Assembly: GCA_030041095.1 (NCBI GenBank)
Contig: JASHON010000103.1
Span: forward strand, 1 to 35,743
DNA: 35,743 nt
Source of the DNA: Terriglobia bacterium
GTDB taxonomy: Bacteria > Acidobacteriota > Terriglobia > UBA7540
Direction: 5' to 3'
The position numbers were made by a program, and so were the translations under genes. The notes below the pieces were generated by a model, which saw only the letters and a list, made by a program, of their open reading frames with translations, did no database searches and had not been told where the DNA came from. The first letter of the stretch is position 1. Each line of letters begins with the position of its first letter. Of the stretch, positions 882 to 29,166 are shown in pieces.

Positions 882-1862
882 CTACTCGTGGCTTGATGTT
901 CCCATATCCGGCGGGGCCGAAGAAAGCGAAACCGAAGGAGGTAGATTGCTTGTTCCAGTCGTTGGCCCGCCATTGCCTGAATTCGAAGAAGTAGCAACCC
1001 GCGCCATCTGCTGCTTGGGCGCGCTGACGTAACCGTGGACATGGTTCTTGCTAATCCTGTTCACCACCAATTGCAGCGGCACCGGGCTTCGATCCATCTC
1101 GAAACTGACCGGCTCGTAGAGGTCCACATTTTTTTTGATCAGTTTCTGATCATCCACCAACAGGATCATGTTGTAGTTTTGATGCTTGGCATTGGTGTGC
1201 CGCAGTTCCAGGCTGATTGGGCCTGCCCTCTGAAAGCGCTTGGACTTTTGCAGATCGAACTCATAATAATCGCGCTCGCCCAACCGCTCGAGCGCCACCA
1301 ATTGTTGGTGGTTGTGAGCAATTGCCCCGCTCAGGCCGTTGATGGAATTTGCCTGGTCCGCCAAGCTGGATTGCAGGCTGGCGCGCGCATTCGTCAAATC
1401 TTGCTTGGTGGAGGCGATCTCGATCCCTTGCTCTGTAAGCTGCTTCTGTATTTTCTTCCCCCATTCCGGCACGGCCGGCTTCTGCGGCCGGTAGGCTAGC
1501 CTTCGTGCAAAGTGGCGCCGGAGCCGAGGCTTGAGCACCGGAGCTGGCTTGACTGGTGCGGGAGCGGGAGCCGGGGGATTCTTCTCAAGAGCAGCGAGCT
1601 TGGTCTTCAAAGCCGTCAGTTGGTTCTGTGCTTCCGTCAGCTCCGTGCCGAGTTGGGTATTTGCCTCCGTCAACCGACTCATGCCGCGGGTTTCATGAGC
1701 GGCGTATCCTAAGCCGACCAGTACCACGGCGATGAGCACGGCCGCGCATACTAACAACCCTTGATTCACGCGGGTACCTGCTGCCCTACGGTCTTCGGGC
1801 GCCTCTATTTCAGGCTCACTTCCGTGAGGATTTGAGTTGAAACGGTCATTCTGGTCTGTCAT
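882..1862 (-). CDS. Membrane-anchored coiled-coil protein of unknown function
   Basis: Function not recognised. The 326-residue protein starts at an ATG (1860-1862) preceded by a strong GAGGAGG site about 8 bases upstream; a longer open frame to 2102 runs into the neighbouring gene and is not used. Visible order: a charged cytoplasmic-type N-terminus (1-30), one hydrophobic segment (~34-54, LLVCAAVLIAVVLVGLGYAA), a heptad-like coiled coil (~60-93), a Pro/Ala-rich linker (~95-115), a basic stretch with paired Arg, a second helical region rich in Gln/Ser (~135-195), then a beta-like domain (~200-285; YYEFDLQKSKRFQRAGPISLEL) and a low-complexity Ser/Gly/Pro tail. The topology suggests an inner-membrane anchor with an extracytoplasmic domain. 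It lies 152 bases downstream of the DUF92 gene on the same strand, so co-transcription is possible. Confidence 0.75.
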   Translation of the reverse strand: MTDQNDRFNSNPHGSEPEIEAPEDRRAAGTRVNQGLLVCAAVLIAVVLVGLGYAAHETRGMSRLTEANTQLGTELTEAQNQLTALKTKLAALEKNPPAPAPAPVKPAPVLKPRLRRHFARRLAYRPQKPAVPEWGKKIQKQLTEQGIEIASTKQDLTNARASLQSSLADQANSINGLSGAIAHNHQQLVALERLGERDYYEFDLQKSKRFQRAGPISLELRHTNAKHQNYNMILLVDDQKLIKKNVDLYEPVSFEMDRSPVPLQLVVNRISKNHVHGYVSAPKQQMARVATSSNSGNGGPTTGTSNLPPSVSLSSAPPDMGTSSHE

Positions 1863-2014
1863 AGTCCCACACCTCCTCGCGCGGGAATTGAGCAAACGAA
1901 TGGCCAAACCATGATTTGCTAAGCCCTTACGGAGCATAAGGTTACAGTAAAACTGGGGCAGGGATTTGACGCGCGATCCTGGAGAGTTTTCATTCTTCAC
2001 GCAAAAATTACGCT

Positions 2015-3400
2015 TCAACGCAACGCGGCGATCAGTGCGATGGCGCCGGCGAGGCTGGTACCGGCAAAGTTGACGATGCCGTTGGTCACCAAGCCGCGGC
2101 ACTCGAGCGTCGCTCCCAGAAAGCTATCGACCAGATTGCCTATGAATGCCGCGGCCAGGGCTACCACGGCCAACCAGCCTGAGACAATGCCCAATACATA
2201 GGCCGCGGCCAGAATCAGCATGGACGCGCCAAAGCCCGCGACCGTGCCCGCCAGAGATATCGCTCCATCCTCACCTGCGGCAACCGGCTTAAAGCTTGTG
2301 ATCAGCCAGGCCTTCGAGGAAAGCCACTTACCAATCTCGCTCGAAACTGTGTCGCCGGCGGCCTCCGCAAGTGTTGCAACGAAAGCTGCGAGAAAGGCAG
2401 ATTGATACGGTGTAGTGATGACCAGGAACGAAAAGAAAGCCGCTGGAAGAAGGTTGGCTACGGCTTCTCGCCAGGTCCGCGCGCCGGCACGTCGCTCGGC
2501 AATGCTCCGCGCTCTCTTGCTCGCGTATCCCAACCTCGTGCATCCCGAGCCAAAGATGAAAAAAACGAGCAGGATCAGGAAGCTCTTGTATCCGAAGCCC
2601 ATGTAGATGGCAACCCCAAGGAAAAACCCCGCTATGGCGCCAGAGCGCGAAACCTGATGCAGAGCCAGCGCGAGCAGGGCGAACGCCAGATTCACTCCAA
2701 CGGCCAGGACCACTCGAATGCCCAAAAAAGGCAAGTTCTCGTAAAAGGACGTGCGGCTTATAAGGCCAGCGCAAAAGATGAAAGACGCGCTCGCCAACGG
2801 CACTGTGACTCTGGAATCGAGGCGGATGGGTACATGCTGCATCCCGGCGCCGACCAGAGCGCCAGCCAGGCAAATTAGCAATGTTCTTCCGGACGGTTCC
2901 GACGAGGTAGTCCAAAGCAGCAAGAACCACGCACCTGGCGCGCCAAATACGACGAAGCTGCAGAAGCTTAGCCAGGACTTGGACGAGTTGAATGGAAGAC
3001 GCTTGCCTCCCCATCGACTTCTCCCCAACGTTTCCGCGGCGCAGGCCATGCCGCCACCCAGTGCCGTCAAGCCCCAGGCGGCTGCTACGATGGGGAGGTA
3101 TCGATGGAATGCGAGCGTCAGAACGAAAAGAGTGGCGGCGAAAAAGACTGCTCCAGAATTATTGTGAAACAAGTCTCGCCCGCCACCGCCCACGGCTTGG
3201 GCGCTGTTTAGCAGTTGGGGAAGAACGTAGCGGCAAATGAGAAGCAGCAGGATGCAAAGTCCGGCAGTTTCGAGCCAACTGAGACAATAGAGAAGAAAAG
3301 CAGGCAACAGTAGGGTAATCTGCAAAATCCAGGGATTAAGGCTGAATGCCAGCTTCTGAGCCGGGAAGTCTGCCGGTGTTAGTTGTGGGGCGTCCATCAT
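2015..3400 (-). CDS. DUF92 (TMEM19/VTE6-like) integral membrane protein with N-terminal membrane extension
   Basis: About 461 residues, nearly all hydrophobic, with roughly a dozen possible membrane segments. The C-terminal half carries DUF92 family signatures: AEAAGDTVSSEIGK, GEDGAISLAGTVAGFGAS and GNLVDSFLGATLE. Members of this family include the plant phytyl-phosphate kinase VTE6, and relatives are CTP-dependent polyprenol kinases, so a lipid-alcohol or isoprenoid phosphate kinase role is possible but unproven. The N-terminal ~200 residues are a further polytopic region that may be a dolichol-kinase or CTP-transferase-like domain; I cannot confirm this by eye. Two adjacent ATG codons (3400 and 3397) are the best starts, though the ribosome site is weak; the frame is open to 3715 without recognisable coding character. 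It lies between the TPR gene and the coiled-coil gene on the same strand. Confidence 0.8.
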   Translation of the reverse strand: MMDAPQLTPADFPAQKLAFSLNPWILQITLLLPAFLLYCLSWLETAGLCILLLLICRYVLPQLLNSAQAVGGGGRDLFHNNSGAVFFAATLFVLTLAFHRYLPIVAAAWGLTALGGGMACAAETLGRSRWGGKRLPFNSSKSWLSFCSFVVFGAPGAWFLLLWTTSSEPSGRTLLICLAGALVGAGMQHVPIRLDSRVTVPLASASFIFCAGLISRTSFYENLPFLGIRVVLAVGVNLAFALLALALHQVSRSGAIAGFFLGVAIYMGFGYKSFLILLVFFIFGSGCTRLGYASKRARSIAERRAGARTWREAVANLLPAAFFSFLVITTPYQSAFLAAFVATLAEAAGDTVSSEIGKWLSSKAWLITSFKPVAAGEDGAISLAGTVAGFGASMLILAAAYVLGIVSGWLAVVALAAAFIGNLVDSFLGATLECRGLVTNGIVNFAGTSLAGAIALIAALR

Positions 3401-23184: not shown

Positions 23185-24591
23185 ATGAGCACAGACTTTC
23201 TCAAGTGGCTGGACGAACAGCAGGGCAGGACATATGAGCTGCACGCACGGCACATCAACCCGATTTTCGTCAAAATGCTGCAGACCATCGGCTTCGACAA
23301 GCAATTTGTGAGGGGACAAGGGTGTTATCTCTACGACGCTGGCGGCAATCGCTACCTGGATATGCTGACGGGCTGGGGCGTTTTTGCTTTGGGTAGAAAC
23401 CATCCGAAAGTGCGATCGGTGCTCGAAGCGGTGTTATCGCGCGAGCTGCCCAACCTGGTTCGTATGGACTGCTCATTACTCGCCGGGCTGGTTGCCGAAA
23501 AGCTCACGAGCCGTACGGCGCCCCACAAGGGCCAATCTCTAACCCGCGTATTTTTTTGCAACTCAGGCGCCGAAAGCGTTGAGGCTGCGATCAAATTCGC
23601 GCGTTGCTTCACGGCAAAGCAGCGGATTCTCTACTGCGATCATGCCTTTCACGGCCTTACAGTGGGATCGCTCTCGCTGAATGGCGCCGGATTCTTTCGC
23701 GAGCGCTTCGGCGACCTGATGCCCTGGACCGAGTCGGTCCCGTTCAATGACCTCGCCGCGCTTGAGCGGGCACTGGCCCGAAAGGACGTTGCCGCCTTCT
23801 TTGTTGAGACCGTCCAGGGGAAGAGCTGCGACGTCGCATGCGATGGATATCTCGAAGAAGCACAGAAATTGTGTCGCAGGGCAGGGGCTTTGCTGGTTGC
23901 AGATGAGGTTCAGTGTGGGATAGGCCGAACCGGGCGATGGTTCGCTTATCAGCACTGGCCCAATGTTGAGCCTGATATCGTCTGCGTCGCCAAGGCGCTG
24001 TCCGGAGGCTACGTACCCGTGGGCGCCGTTGTTACCACTCCCGGGATCATGGACGCCGTTTTCAATACGATGGAGCGCTGCGTCATCCACTCGAACACTT
24101 TTGGCCAGAACGACCTCGCCATGGCCGCGGCGCTGGCCACTCTAACGGTCATGGAAGAGGATGGCATTGTGGAGAACGCTGAGACCCTTGGAACGTACGC
24201 GATCCGGCAATTAGAAAACATCACGCGCGATTGCCCGTTTGCCGGTGAGGTGAGGGGCAAGGGGCTGATGTTCGGTATCGACTTCAAGCGGCCGGAGAAT
24301 TCCCTCAAACTCCAGGCGGCATGGGATGCGCTGCACGCGCTGAACTTCGCGATTTTCGGGCAGATGGTTATCGTGCCTCTCATGCAGGAGCACCGCATCC
24401 TCGCACAGGTTGCCGGGTATCATACAGAAGTAATCAAATTTCTCCCACCCCTCAACATTACGAAGCAGGACCTTGACTGGTTTCTTTCGGCAATGCAGCA
24501 AGTGCTCCAGAATACTCTTCGTGTTCCAGGCGCTGCCTGGGATACGGTGATGAGCCTTGCCAAAGGGGCCAGCCGGGCATACCTGCGCTGA
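23185..24591 (+). CDS. Class III aminotransferase (acetylornithine/ornithine-type fold), PLP-dependent
   Basis: The 468-residue enzyme starts at ATG behind GAGGAT. Family hallmarks are VRGQGCYLYDAGGNRYLDMLTGWGVFALGRNHP, the cofactor-binding CNSGAESVEAAIKFAR and DHAFHGLTVGSLS, the aspartate in LLVADEVQCGIGRTG, and the Schiff-base Lys270 in VAKALSGGYVPVGA. It moves an amino group between an omega-amine or amino acid and a keto acid in the cytosol. The N-terminal block (DFLKWLDEQQGRTYELHARHINP) and the preserved length suggest a specific subgroup of unknown substrate, not argD itself. It is read away from the UvrC-like gene; 290 bases separate the two starts. Confidence 0.88.
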   Translation: MSTDFLKWLDEQQGRTYELHARHINPIFVKMLQTIGFDKQFVRGQGCYLYDAGGNRYLDMLTGWGVFALGRNHPKVRSVLEAVLSRELPNLVRMDCSLLAGLVAEKLTSRTAPHKGQSLTRVFFCNSGAESVEAAIKFARCFTAKQRILYCDHAFHGLTVGSLSLNGAGFFRERFGDLMPWTESVPFNDLAALERALARKDVAAFFVETVQGKSCDVACDGYLEEAQKLCRRAGALLVADEVQCGIGRTGRWFAYQHWPNVEPDIVCVAKALSGGYVPVGAVVTTPGIMDAVFNTMERCVIHSNTFGQNDLAMAAALATLTVMEEDGIVENAETLGTYAIRQLENITRDCPFAGEVRGKGLMFGIDFKRPENSLKLQAAWDALHALNFAIFGQMVIVPLMQEHRILAQVAGYHTEVIKFLPPLNITKQDLDWFLSAMQQVLQNTLRVPGAAWDTVMSLAKGASRAYLR

Positions 24592-24598
24592 TCTGGAA

Positions 24599-24635
24599 GC
24601 TGCTTCCGGGCGCAGAGCTCCGCCCGGCACGCAGC
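24599..24635 (+). terminator. Hairpin after the aminotransferase gene, possible terminator
   Basis: The bases form an inner stem CCGGGCG/CGCCCGG with a short loop and an outer GCTGC/GCAGC stem, beginning eight bases after the stop codon. There is no T-run after it, so it may act in 3'-end stabilisation or with Rho instead of as an intrinsic terminator. Confidence 0.4.
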
Positions 24636-25053
24636 AAAGACACACTAATCATAATTTCTCGACCTGAGACCCTCTCTGCGAACGCGGCTCCTCCCTCAGT
24701 TCCGAGTCTCGCGTGACCCGTAGGTCGCAGCGGCTCAGGTTCTCGATAAACGCGAATCTGAACCTGATCAATTTACTCAAAAAGCATGGCTTACGGAAGC
24801 TCAAAATGGCCAACCTGAGCAACTTAGTTTAAGACAAAGGATCGCGTTTGGTACCGAAATATCTTTTTGAAAAAAGGAAGATTAACGGCATCTAATGTAT
24901 GGTGAACCCGAATAGGCTGACAAGTTAATGAAAAAAAACAACTTAACACTATAGCGCCTGATAATTAACTGAAAATAAATGAGATATCGTGATTTATACC
25001 GTGTCTTCCGGCCATTGAACAAATAGGCTTTAGGATGCCATCAGCCAATGCCT

Positions 25054-25142
25054 GGGTGGGGCACACATGGGGCCGCCTGTTGCCATGTGTGCGATCCTGA
25101 AGGCTCGCATACATCGCAAAGTGCGCGATGTATGCGCCACCC
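25054..25142. repeat. Two adjacent perfect hairpins enclosed by an outer stem (three-way junction)
   Basis: Hairpin one has 10-base perfect arms (25061-25070 and 25083-25092, GCACACATGG/CCATGTGTGC) with a 12-base loop. Hairpin two has 12-base perfect arms (25106-25117 and 25125-25136, CGCATACATCGC/GCGATGTATGCG) with a 7-base loop. A 6-base outer pairing GGGTGG (25054-25059) with CCACCC (25137-25142) would close both. The pattern is compatible with a structured RNA or a small non-autonomous repeat element. It is not near any recognised transposase. Confidence 0.6.
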
Positions 25143-25392
25143 GCGATGCAACCAACCACCGTCTGCAAACCACTGATTAATTACCACTTGCACTTGTCGC
25201 CCAGGTGGCGCAGAAACTTGCTGAATCACGATGCGGGCATAGGCGGCCATTGGGAGAGCGGGTGGCGCCGCTTTGTCGAAGCGTCAAGCAAACAGTAAAG
25301 CCCGGCGGATGTTATTATATTAACGTAGGGCTCTGTCTGCTCAATTCAGGCTCAGCTAGGCGCAGGGAAGGCTCGAATACCGGCCTCTGTGC

Positions 25393-28300
25393 TTGGCCGG
25401 GAAGCTGGCGGCCTCAGAGCACGTCGAGTTTCTCAGATTCAGCCGATCATCACATCAAGCGAGGTGTACCTTCAGCTTCATCACAGATCAGCATCAAAAG
25501 CAGCTTCATCATCTTGAAGACCTCCTGCGCGAGCGCATCGCCATCATCGACGGTGCGATGGGCACGATGATTCAGGCCCGCAAGCTCACCGAAGAGGATT
25601 ATCGCGGCAAGGAATTTGCCGGCCACGGCCGCCCGCTCCGGCTGTGCAATGACGTTCTCAACTTGACGCAGCCGCAGATGGTCGAAGCGATTCACGGCCA
25701 GTATCTCGAAGCCGGCGCGGATATCATCGAAACCAACACATTTAACTCAAACGCGATCTCCATGAGGGAGTACTCGCTCGAGAGCCGCGTCTACGATCTG
25801 AACGTTGCCGGTGCGCGTGCGGCGCGACGCGCCGTCGAGCGTGAAACGGGCCGTTCCAGCCGTCACTGTTTCGTGGCCGGCTCGATCGGTCCCACCAGCC
25901 GGACGGCCTCTGCCTCGCAAGATCTGGCGAGTCCCGCGTCGCGCGCCGTCACCTTCGATCAATTGCGTGAAGCCTATCGGGAACAGGCCCGCGGCCTGGT
26001 TGACGGCGGGGTCGACGTGCTCCTGGTAGAAACCATTTTCGATACGCTCAACGCCAAAGCGGCCTTATTCGCGATAGACGAATTATTCGAAAAGACGGCT
26101 CACCGCATCCCCGTGATGGTTTCTGTCACCATCGTTGACCAGAGCGGGAGGACGCTCTCCGGCCAAACCCTCGAAGCATTCTGGATTTCCATCGACCGTG
26201 CCAGCCTGTTCAGCGTGGGCATCAACTGCTCGCTCGGCCCCAAGCAGATGAGGCCGTACGTCGAGGAACTTTCCGGTCTCGCTCCCATTTACGTTTCCTG
26301 CTATCCGAACGCCGGGCTGCCGAACGCCTTCGGAGGGTTCGACGAATCGCCGGAAAGCATGTCCGCTGACCTCAAGGACTTTGCGGCAAATGGCTGGGTA
26401 AACTTTGTGGGCGGCTGCTGTGGAACAACACCGGCTCACATCCGGGCTTTTGCCGAGGCGGTGCGCGGTCTGGCTCCGCGTCGCCCGCCCCGCCCCGCGT
26501 CACTTTCCCGCTTCAGCGGACTCGAGCCGATGGTGATGCGCCCTGATTCGAATTTTGTCAACATTGGCGAGCGCACGAACGTGACGGGCTCGCCTAAGTT
26601 CGCCCGGCTCATCAAGACGGGAAACTACGAAGAGGCGCTGGGCGTTGCGCGGCAGCAGGTGGAGGGTGGCGCCCAGATTCTCGACGTGAACATGGACGAA
26701 GCCATGCTCGACAGCGAGCAGGCCATCATCACCTTCTTGAACTATCTTGCGTCCGAGCCGGATATCGCGCGCGTTCCCATTATGCTTGATAGCTCCAAGT
26801 GGAGCGTCATTGAAGCCGGGCTGAAGTGTATTCAAGGCAAAGGCATCGTTAATTCCATTAGCTTGAAAGAGGGCGAAGAGAGCTTTAAGGAGCGTGCCCG
26901 GCTGGTCCGGCGCTATGGCGCCAGCATGGTCGTGATGGCGTTTGACGAGCAAGGCCAAGCGGATAACGTGGAGCGCAAGGTTTCGATCTCGTCACGGGCT
27001 TACCGGATTCTCACCGAGGATGTGGGCGTTCCGGCCACGGACATCATCTTTGATCCGAACATCTTCACCGTCGGCACAGGAATTGAAGAGCACAACAACT
27101 ATGCCATCGATTTCATCGAGGCAACACGCCGGATTAAGGCTACGCTGCCCGGCTGCAAGGTCAGCGGAGGAGTCAGCAATATTTCGTTTTCTTTCCGAGG
27201 GAACAACACCGTCCGCGAGGCGATGCATTCGGCGTTCCTCTACCATGCCATTCGCGCAGGCATGGATATGGGCATTGTCAATGCCGGCCAACTCGCCATC
27301 TACGAGGAGGTCCCTCGCGAGCTGCGCCATCGCGTCGAGGATGTGTTGCTCAATCGCCGGCCGGACGCGACGGAGCGCCTGCTGGCTTTTGCCGACTCGG
27401 TGCAGCCGCGCGACAAAGCCGAGGCACAGGAAGAAGCATGGCGGCGAGAGCCGGTGGAAGAGAGACTGAAACACGCGCTGGTGAAAGGCATTGTCGATTT
27501 CATCGATGCGGATACGGAAGAGGCGCTGCAGAAATTCGGCAAGCCGCTCGCCGTGATCGAGGGTCCACTGATGGACGGCATGAACGTTGTGGGCGACCTG
27601 TTCGGATCGGGGAAGATGTTTCTGCCGCAGGTGGTGAAGAGCGCCCGCGTGATGAAGAAGGCTGTTGCCTGGCTGCTGCCCTATATGGAAGCGGAGAAGA
27701 GAGCTAACGGAGGTCACAAAGCGGAGGCGCGCATCGTCATGGCCACGGTGAAGGGCGACGTGCACGATATTGGTAAGAACATCGTGGGGGTCGTGCTCGG
27801 CTGCAACAATTATGAGGTCATCGATTTGGGTGTTATGACGCCGTGCGAAAAGATCCTTAAGGCGGCCCGCGACGCGGAGGCCGATATGATCGGTCTCAGC
27901 GGCTTGATTACTCCCTCACTCGACGAAATGATCCACGTGGCGAAGGAAATGGAGCGCGAGCAGTTCAGGGTACCCCTCCTCATCGGTGGAGCAACGACGA
28001 GCAAAATCCATACCGCGGTGAAGATTGCGCCTGCTTATTCTTCTCCTGTCGTCCACGTCCAGGACGCCTCGCGCGCGGTCGGGGTGGTCAGCCGGCTGAA
28101 GAGTTCGGAGATGCGACTCGCGTTCATAGAAGATAACCGGCGCGAACAGGACAAACTACGCCAGATTCATCGCCCGCATGCCCAGGCCTTGGTGAGCCTG
28201 GAGGAAGCGCGTCGGCGAAAGCCCGTCTTCGACTGGACAAAGTCACCGCCCGCGCGGCCGTCTTTCCTGGGCACGCGGGTTTACGACCCGGCGCCGCTCG

Positions 28301-29166
28301 CGGACATTGTTCCTTACATTGATTGGACGCCGTTCTTCCACGCCTGGGAGCTTCGCGGAACTTATCCGAAGATTTTCGATTCCGCGGAGGTCGGCCCCAA
28401 AGCGCGTGAGCTTTTCGATGATGCTCAGCGCCTGCTGGCGAGAATTGTGGAGCAAGAGCGGCTTACGGCGCGCGGAGTGATGGGATTTTTTCCCGCCAAT
28501 AGCGCGGGAGACGACATCGAGATTTACGCGGACGAATCCCGGTCGCGGGTGGCCGGCGTTTTCTGCACCCTCCGCCAACAGATGGAAAAGGCTGAGAGGC
28601 ATGGCAACCTTGCGCTGTCGGATTTCATCGCTCCGCAGGAAACGGGCGTTCGGGATTTCCTCGGTGCATTCGCAGTGACAGCAGGGCTGAACGCGGAATC
28701 GCTGGTGGCGGAGTTTGAGAGCGATCATGACGATTACAACGCCATCATGGTGAAAGCATTGGCAGACCGCTTGGCGGAAGCGCTGGCCGAGTTGTTACAC
28801 CGGTGCGCCCGGAAGGCCTGGGGCTACGGCAATGAGGAAAACCTGAGCTATGACGATCTCATCCACGAGCGGTACCGCGGCATCCGGCCAGCGCCCGGCT
28901 ACCCTGCGTATCCCGATCACACGGAAAAGAAGTTGCTATTTGACCTGCTTCGAGCGGAAGAAACGACGGGCATTCATCTTACCGAAAGCTTTGCCATGCT
29001 GCCTGCAGCGTCCGTTTGCGGACTCTATTTTTCCCACCCCGACTCCCGCTATTTTGCTGTGGGCAAGATCGGCCGCGACCAGGTGCTGGATTATCACCGG
29101 CGCAAAGGGATGGACTTGCAGACCGTGGAGCGCTGGCTGGCTCCGGCTTTGGATTATGAGCCTTGA
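25393..29166 (+). CDS. metH: Cobalamin-dependent methionine synthase
   Basis: The four-module enzyme (1257 codons) methylates homocysteine using methylcobalamin and methyltetrahydrofolate. The homocysteine domain has [11 protein letters not shown], and zinc-ligand cysteines at Cys279 (INCSLG) and Cys342/343 (GGCCGTTP). The pterin domain follows at ~380-640 ([29 protein letters not shown]). The cobalamin module (~680-920) carries GDVHDIGKN with the cobalt-ligand His791, and [16 protein letters not shown]. The C-terminal activation domain has [15 protein letters not shown] and [15 protein letters not shown]. Everything downstream of ~residue 35 fits; the start does not. There is no in-frame ATG or GTG before the conserved IIDGAMG. 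The TTG at 25393 lies inside a GC hairpin, with no ribosome site. The N-terminus is therefore uncertain and homology would start near residues 30-40 (codon ATC at 25480). Confidence 0.95.

Follow-up and report, generated by a model that had tools for sequence, protein, structure and literature searches.

Two perfect hairpins bracketed by complementary bases lie ahead of the methionine synthase gene metH in the stretch of Terriglobia DNA analyzed here (35,743 bases, hereafter the window), and they raise the question of what kind of element they form. The sequence-only reading had offered three candidates: a structured RNA, a cis element for metH, and the remnant of a small mobile repeat. Our comparisons place the hairpins in a new family of REP/REPIN repeats, a known kind, and not among control elements of metH. 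The 89-bp element is very probably a REPIN (BIME unit), two inverted REP palindromes with their heads outward, spread by a REP-associated tyrosine transposase (RAYT) as in the studied systems.

Architecture and fold of the element

We place the element at 25054-25142 on the plus strand, where its ends match the family boundary described below. It consists of unit A (25054-25100, plus strand) and unit B (25099-25142, minus strand), which are alike and score 50.9 and 59.0 bits with R1, our covariance model of the repeat unit, which both match by construction as training units. Unit A opens with the head GGGTGG (25054-25059, plus strand), which includes a guide-like tetranucleotide, GTGG, and continues with a plus-strand stem-loop (25061-25092) of 10 bp and a loop of 12, its arms being GCACACATGG (25061-25070) and CCATGTGTGC (25083-25092). 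A 13-base spacer (25093-25105) leads to the stem-loop of unit B on the minus strand (25106-25136; 12 bp, loop 7; arms 25106-25117 and 25125-25136) and to the head of unit B (25137-25142, minus strand), which reads CCACCC on the plus strand. The first description of the locus, in which perfect stems of 10 and 12 bases lie 13 bases apart between GGGTGG and CCACCC, proved exact in coordinates and pairings. It had also held that random sequence rarely gives such a structure, and this was borne out. Of the three perfect hairpins of at least 10 bp (loop 3-15) in the window, two are the element's own; dinucleotide shuffles of the window (n = 30) averaged 0.47 such hairpins with a maximum of 2, and 0 of 30 had two within 40 bases of each other.

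According to passages of PMC6006769, a REP carries the tetranucleotide GTAG or GTGG 0-2 nt before the foot of a hairpin. Here GTGG stands 0-1 nt before the stem, and both stems fall within the fully paired 7-20 nt expected of a REP, with loops (12 and 7) that exceed the 2-5 nt given there for short hairpins. The two units are inverted and able to form a hairpin, which is the arrangement that characterizes a REPIN or BIME.

The segment 25048-25148 is unusually stable when folded as RNA (z = -3.95 on the plus strand, -3.81 on the minus strand) or as DNA (z = -3.74), and 0 of 200 shuffles equaled it in each case. The Y-shaped fold first proposed stood as the minimum-energy fold of the DNA but not as that of the RNA, for which a single long hairpin pairing units A and B is more stable (-50.3 versus -46.6 kcal/mol). 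Covariation favors the separate hairpins of the Y. When 11 hand-chosen doublets from four genomes were aligned across the whole A-B element, the separate hairpins had a covariation score of 0.143, against 0.081 in shuffled alignments (0 of 500 as high), whereas the long hairpin, rejected as the conserved fold, had 0.098 against 0.080, a value reached by 23 of 500 shuffles.

A dispersed family with covarying stems

A DNA query spanning 25040-25160 found diverged copies elsewhere in the genome that carries the window (4.88 Mb in 207 contigs): 24 matches up to an expect score of 10, six of them below 1e-8 besides the window itself. The copies showed one palindrome to be the repeat unit, with GGGTGGCGCA as its constant head and TGCG as its foot; the window element combines two of these, inverted. 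A pattern search gave 76 hits, some of them by chance (the reversed control gave 29). From 30 printed head matches we hand-picked 19 units with a visible hairpin as a first alignment, and R1 was built from these. In the same genome R1 yields 36 hits at E ≤ 1, which include six inverted doublets (C87, two on C125, C155, C6 and C67) and some hairpins counted on both strands. At E ≤ 0.01 at least 25 units remain, of which 19 are the training set and match by construction and six are additional. In a crude count against open reading frames, 8, 4 and 2 of 22 units in this genome lie inside frames of at least 120, 150 and 200 amino acids, which cover 71, 61 and 52% of the surrounding DNA. Like REPs, then, the units occur in many dispersed copies per genome, mostly outside long open reading frames.

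The search for further copies, which the first reading had proposed as a check, succeeded in relatives as well. With R1 at E ≤ 0.01, 24 of 41 genomes have hits (this genome and 23 of 40 relatives); the other 17, of 1.7-6.9 Mb, have none. Counts reach at least 97 in a genome of the same genus (G001) and at least 114, the highest, in one from another family of the class (G040), and since only the best 150 candidates were scored per genome these copy numbers may be low. The A-B doublet arrangement recurs in three other genomes. Across 116 placed units the head is conserved at 91-97% per base (91-93% for the GTGG tetranucleotide), a figure helped by the fact that the model used to find units includes the head. 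C occupies position -1 in 71% of units, and positions beyond -3 are near random. The edge of the element at the head is thus sharp, with similarity stopping there.

Several lines of evidence indicate that the stems covary, as the first reading had asked to be checked. In the alignment of 19 units, 88.9% of stem cells are paired and the covariation score is 0.246, against 0.107 in shuffled alignments (0 of 500 as high); the count of pairs changed on both sides is less clear, being reached by 57 of 500 shuffles. A larger alignment, of 133 R1 hits from 72 sources (112 distinct) fitted to the R1 structure, has 96.1% of cells paired and shows 146 double changes where shuffles average 40.3, with 0 of 500 equaling it.

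These results bear directly on the proposal that the element is a cis-acting RNA or regulatory DNA of metH that folds in the leader. It lies about 370-460 bases before the stretch scanned for metH (25513-29166, plus strand; the true start may differ), which matches NCBIfam TIGR02082 at 1703 bits, and its fold is stable. Were it part of metH control it should recur there, but of 11 relatives examined (from 18 with a match at the metH start; 1345-1500 bases upstream in each) none has a convincing unit, a single R1 hit of 12.6 bits (E 0.46) in L207 being disregarded, while copies occur at many unrelated places. No terminator-like site was found at the element. We regard control of metH as extremely improbable and have abandoned the idea. 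The suggestion of a structured RNA is unsupported as such: at Rfam gathering scores the only match in the window is a tRNA, the element reaching none, and although the fold is conserved, the studied action of this family is that of folded single-stranded DNA. It was the third candidate, a small mobile repeat, that was supported, through dispersed copies, sharp ends, covarying stems and an association with RAYT genes in relatives.

The upstream neighbor (23185-24591, plus strand) is a class III aminotransferase-like gene, for which none of the 25 listed models, out of 69 matched, reaches its cut-off. We found no empty site that would correspond to the window copy; in G001 the matches to the aminotransferase gene and to metH lie on different contigs, and none of the three stretches compared has a match to window positions 24579-25503. 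Phage records searched in distant mode gave no match.

RAYT genes in relatives and in the host genome

A REP-type transposase most likely dispersed the element, and the likely driver is a RAYT of the type modeled by NCBIfam NF047646. Of 60 Y1 transposase matches in six relatives we examined 30 loci, and 9 of these have an R1 hit; in some of them the gene is flanked by two units that are inverted relative to each other. The result is a "REPtron" of about 680 bp, a RAYT between two such REPs. In L111 a plus-strand unit (1402-1442), the gene (1468-2019) and a minus-strand unit (2044-2084) follow one another, and in L123 the units lie at 1405-1448 (plus) and 2014-2057 (minus); L144, L216, L217 and L219 are further examples of RAYT genes bracketed by inverted REPs. 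All four of these loci that were scanned pass the NF047646 cut-off of 80 bits, L111 (protein P0002) with 105.6 bits, L123 (P0001) with 85.1 bits, and L144 and L216; besides P0001 and P0002, six proteins of this type pass it. P0002 resembles solved Y1 transposases, including TnpArep 4er8 (E 4.2e-05). REPs beside intact RAYTs share the head of the family, and their stems are often unlike those of units A and B. These loci, with the dispersed copies, covarying stem and sharp ends described above, establish the family and the inverted placement of related REPs about RAYT genes.

The association is strongest for genes of the P0002 type. R1 hits at E ≤ 0.1 occur in 10 of the 15 best P0002-match loci, one per genome (some weak, at 18-20 bits) and in 3 of 15 weaker P0002-match loci. 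Of six named loci, which come from three Acidobacteria MAGs, five have an R1 hit, three of these on both sides of the gene; taken alone, this hints that the organism of the window is of that phylum. Among 30 of 36 NF047646 loci, 8 have an R1 hit at E ≤ 0.1, mostly weak; the strongest, in L286, adjoins a broken gene of the P0002 type that was also encountered as L155.

By analogy with studied REP/RAYT systems, the palindromes would fold when their strand is single-stranded, for example in replication. A RAYT of the HUH/Y1 superfamily would then bind the hairpin and the GTGG guide, cut at the ends and insert a copy elsewhere, and the window copy would have landed in this way between the aminotransferase gene and metH.

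A likely cognate RAYT was found in relatives; the genome that carries the window has fragments of the P0002 type and another RAYT type. It has eight Y1_Tnp matches, and a search with P0002 gave five, all fragments. On C111 a unit (36.9 bits) abuts the broken end of the RAYT fragment, and on C115 a weak one (20.9 bits, E 0.53) lies about 40 bases upstream of the fragment in the left-end orientation; both are in the orientation expected of a REPtron, and the other three fragments show no clear fit to this geometry. We infer that a P0002-type RAYT moved the window copy and that the copy has become inert, since this genome yielded only fragments of such a gene. Unless another RAYT acts on it in trans, it is probably a fossil. 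A passage of PMC6006769 remarks on genomes that have REPs and lack the RAYT gene, and this genome is consistent with that.

The presence of a P0002-type RAYT is a poor guide to how many REPs a genome has. In the REP-rich genomes G001, G016, G018, G020 and G032 the same kind of P0002 search found no full-length gene, and G019, which has a P0002-type gene, gave no R1 hit at E ≤ 0.01. Those REP-rich genomes lend some weight to the view that another transposase moved the units, such as the IS200-like gene of the P0003 type on C133 or the multi-copy RAYT of L012-L015. Downstream of the C133 gene there is a unit of 43.5 bits, one of those used to train R1, and L012, the only one of the four scanned, passes the RAYT cut-off (110.8 bits against NF047646). 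Yet only 4 of 30 P0003-type loci have an R1 hit, an association so weak that we rejected the C133 gene as main driver, and L012-L015 have no R1 hit save one of 13.6 bits in L014, their genes being flanked in L012-L014 by a different palindrome. We consider it unlikely that a transposase such as these, and not a P0002-type RAYT, moved the units.

Two other palindromes in this genome deserve description in their own right. The one that flanks the RAYT genes of L012-L014 belongs to a second, larger family, ATCAGGGCATGACTTCAGTCATGCC (e.g. L012:2039-2058, L012:2195-2214 and L013:1365-1384), with 203 matches when as many as 3 mismatches are allowed (102 on the forward strand and 101 on the reverse; reversed control 0), of which a few may be one place counted on both strands; none lies in the window. 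L012-L015 are 83-93% alike, and together with this palindrome they are a second REP/RAYT system, perhaps still active. On C133, two near-identical perfect 10-bp hairpins, CGCGGACCTC...GAGGTCCGCG (L011:1229-1255 and 2186-2212), flank the P0003-type transposase gene and are perhaps its own end structures.

REPtron copies and the origin of REPINs

In three relatives, whose genomes are drafts in many contigs, two to three REPtron copies per genome are alike (89-95% identical) over about the length of the REPtron only. In G023, L111 and L117 are 89% identical over 1399-2084; in the MAG DBS2-1.bin74, L214, L215 and L216 are 93-95% identical over 656-678 bp; and two G009 copies are 92% identical over 712 bp, R1 detecting only the left unit there, weakly (18.0 bits). 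For L111/L117 and for the pairs among L214, L215 and L216, homology stops at the right end 0-6 bases past the unit. At the left end L111 and L117 begin to match 3 bases ahead of the head, as do L214 and L218, a fourth copy from DBS2-1.bin74 that is truncated by its contig end. L214 differs in its stem and L215 has a damaged head, so that among L214, L215 and L216 homology begins only within the left unit. The two other genomes in the genus of G023 yielded no empty site for the L111 REPtron. A segment of about 114 bp that begins 2 bases past the end of this REPtron (L111:2086-2199, G023:C64) is 97-98% identical at three other places in the same genome.

Internally deleted copies bridge REPtron and REPIN. 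Two from G009 (L222 on G009:C287, L223 on G009:C251) agree at 94% over 389 bp and lie in different surroundings, the pattern that would be expected of a non-autonomous mobile element, and shorter ones in G010 and G023 measure 210-299 bp head to head. The unit-length copies suggest that the REPtrons of these genomes move as units. Passages of PMC6006769 state that REPtrons do not appear to do so, and PMC8049555, in the part consulted, describes RAYTs as single-copy and vertically inherited; the multi-copy REPtrons suggest an exception to this picture.

Gene conversion between REPs could also explain unit-length REPtron copies. More broadly, recombination or gene conversion among repeats already present might have dispersed copies of the family, with no transposition at all. 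Dispersed repeats do recombine, and homology that ends in repeats would fit conversion tracts; such exchange nonetheless leaves unexplained both the first dispersal and the sharp head ends in unrelated flanks, and as an account of the spread we find it very improbable. Transposition by a RAYT remains our preferred reading. We are evenly divided on a further proposal, that the REPtron (REP-RAYT-inverted REP, about 680 bp) is mobile and autonomous in this bacterial group, transposing as one unit and spawning internally deleted, non-autonomous copies. The 89-bp window REPIN would then be an end point of shrinkage, and the system a living intermediate between an IS200-type insertion sequence and the domesticated RAYT/REPIN.

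For comparison, the REPINs or BIMEs of Pseudomonas fluorescens SBW25 and E. coli, as described in parts of PMC3116915 and PMC8266576, are likewise inverted REP doublets that are extragenic, have compensatory changes and are associated with a RAYT. The present family differs in that GTGG stands within a GGGTGG head, 13 bases separate the stems, and the nearest named RAYT hosts of the group are Acidobacteria MAGs. Known REPtrons likewise combine an NF047646 RAYT with inverted flanking REPs, whereas here each of three genomes has two to three unit-length copies as well as internally deleted versions. With IS200/IS605 elements the family shares the Y1 transposase superfamily, subterminal hairpins (passages of PMC6006769) and element-length copies. 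Unlike those elements, it has end palindromes that are also dispersed on their own, and for P0001 and P0002 the RAYT model outscores the IS200 model, which both match below its cut-off. The class 3 TnpA-Y1 of Solibacter usitatus, also acidobacterial, has three related genes and about 600 repeats and is described in the relevant passages of PMC6006769 as a possible intermediate between classes; its foot is given there as CnGA and its Y motif as Y----Q, whereas here we find GTGG and, by eye in P0002, YMHNNP. We also consulted PMC3733652. Among the titles and abstract openings listed for RAYT or "repetitive extragenic palindromic" with Acidobacteria, we recognized no description of this family.

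The family adds a GTGG-head REP/REPIN to a poorly studied group. Its members form a natural series, from the full REPtron through the internally deleted REPtron and the REPIN to the single REP, and this series makes the origin of REPINs, and the question of whether RAYTs move themselves, testable.
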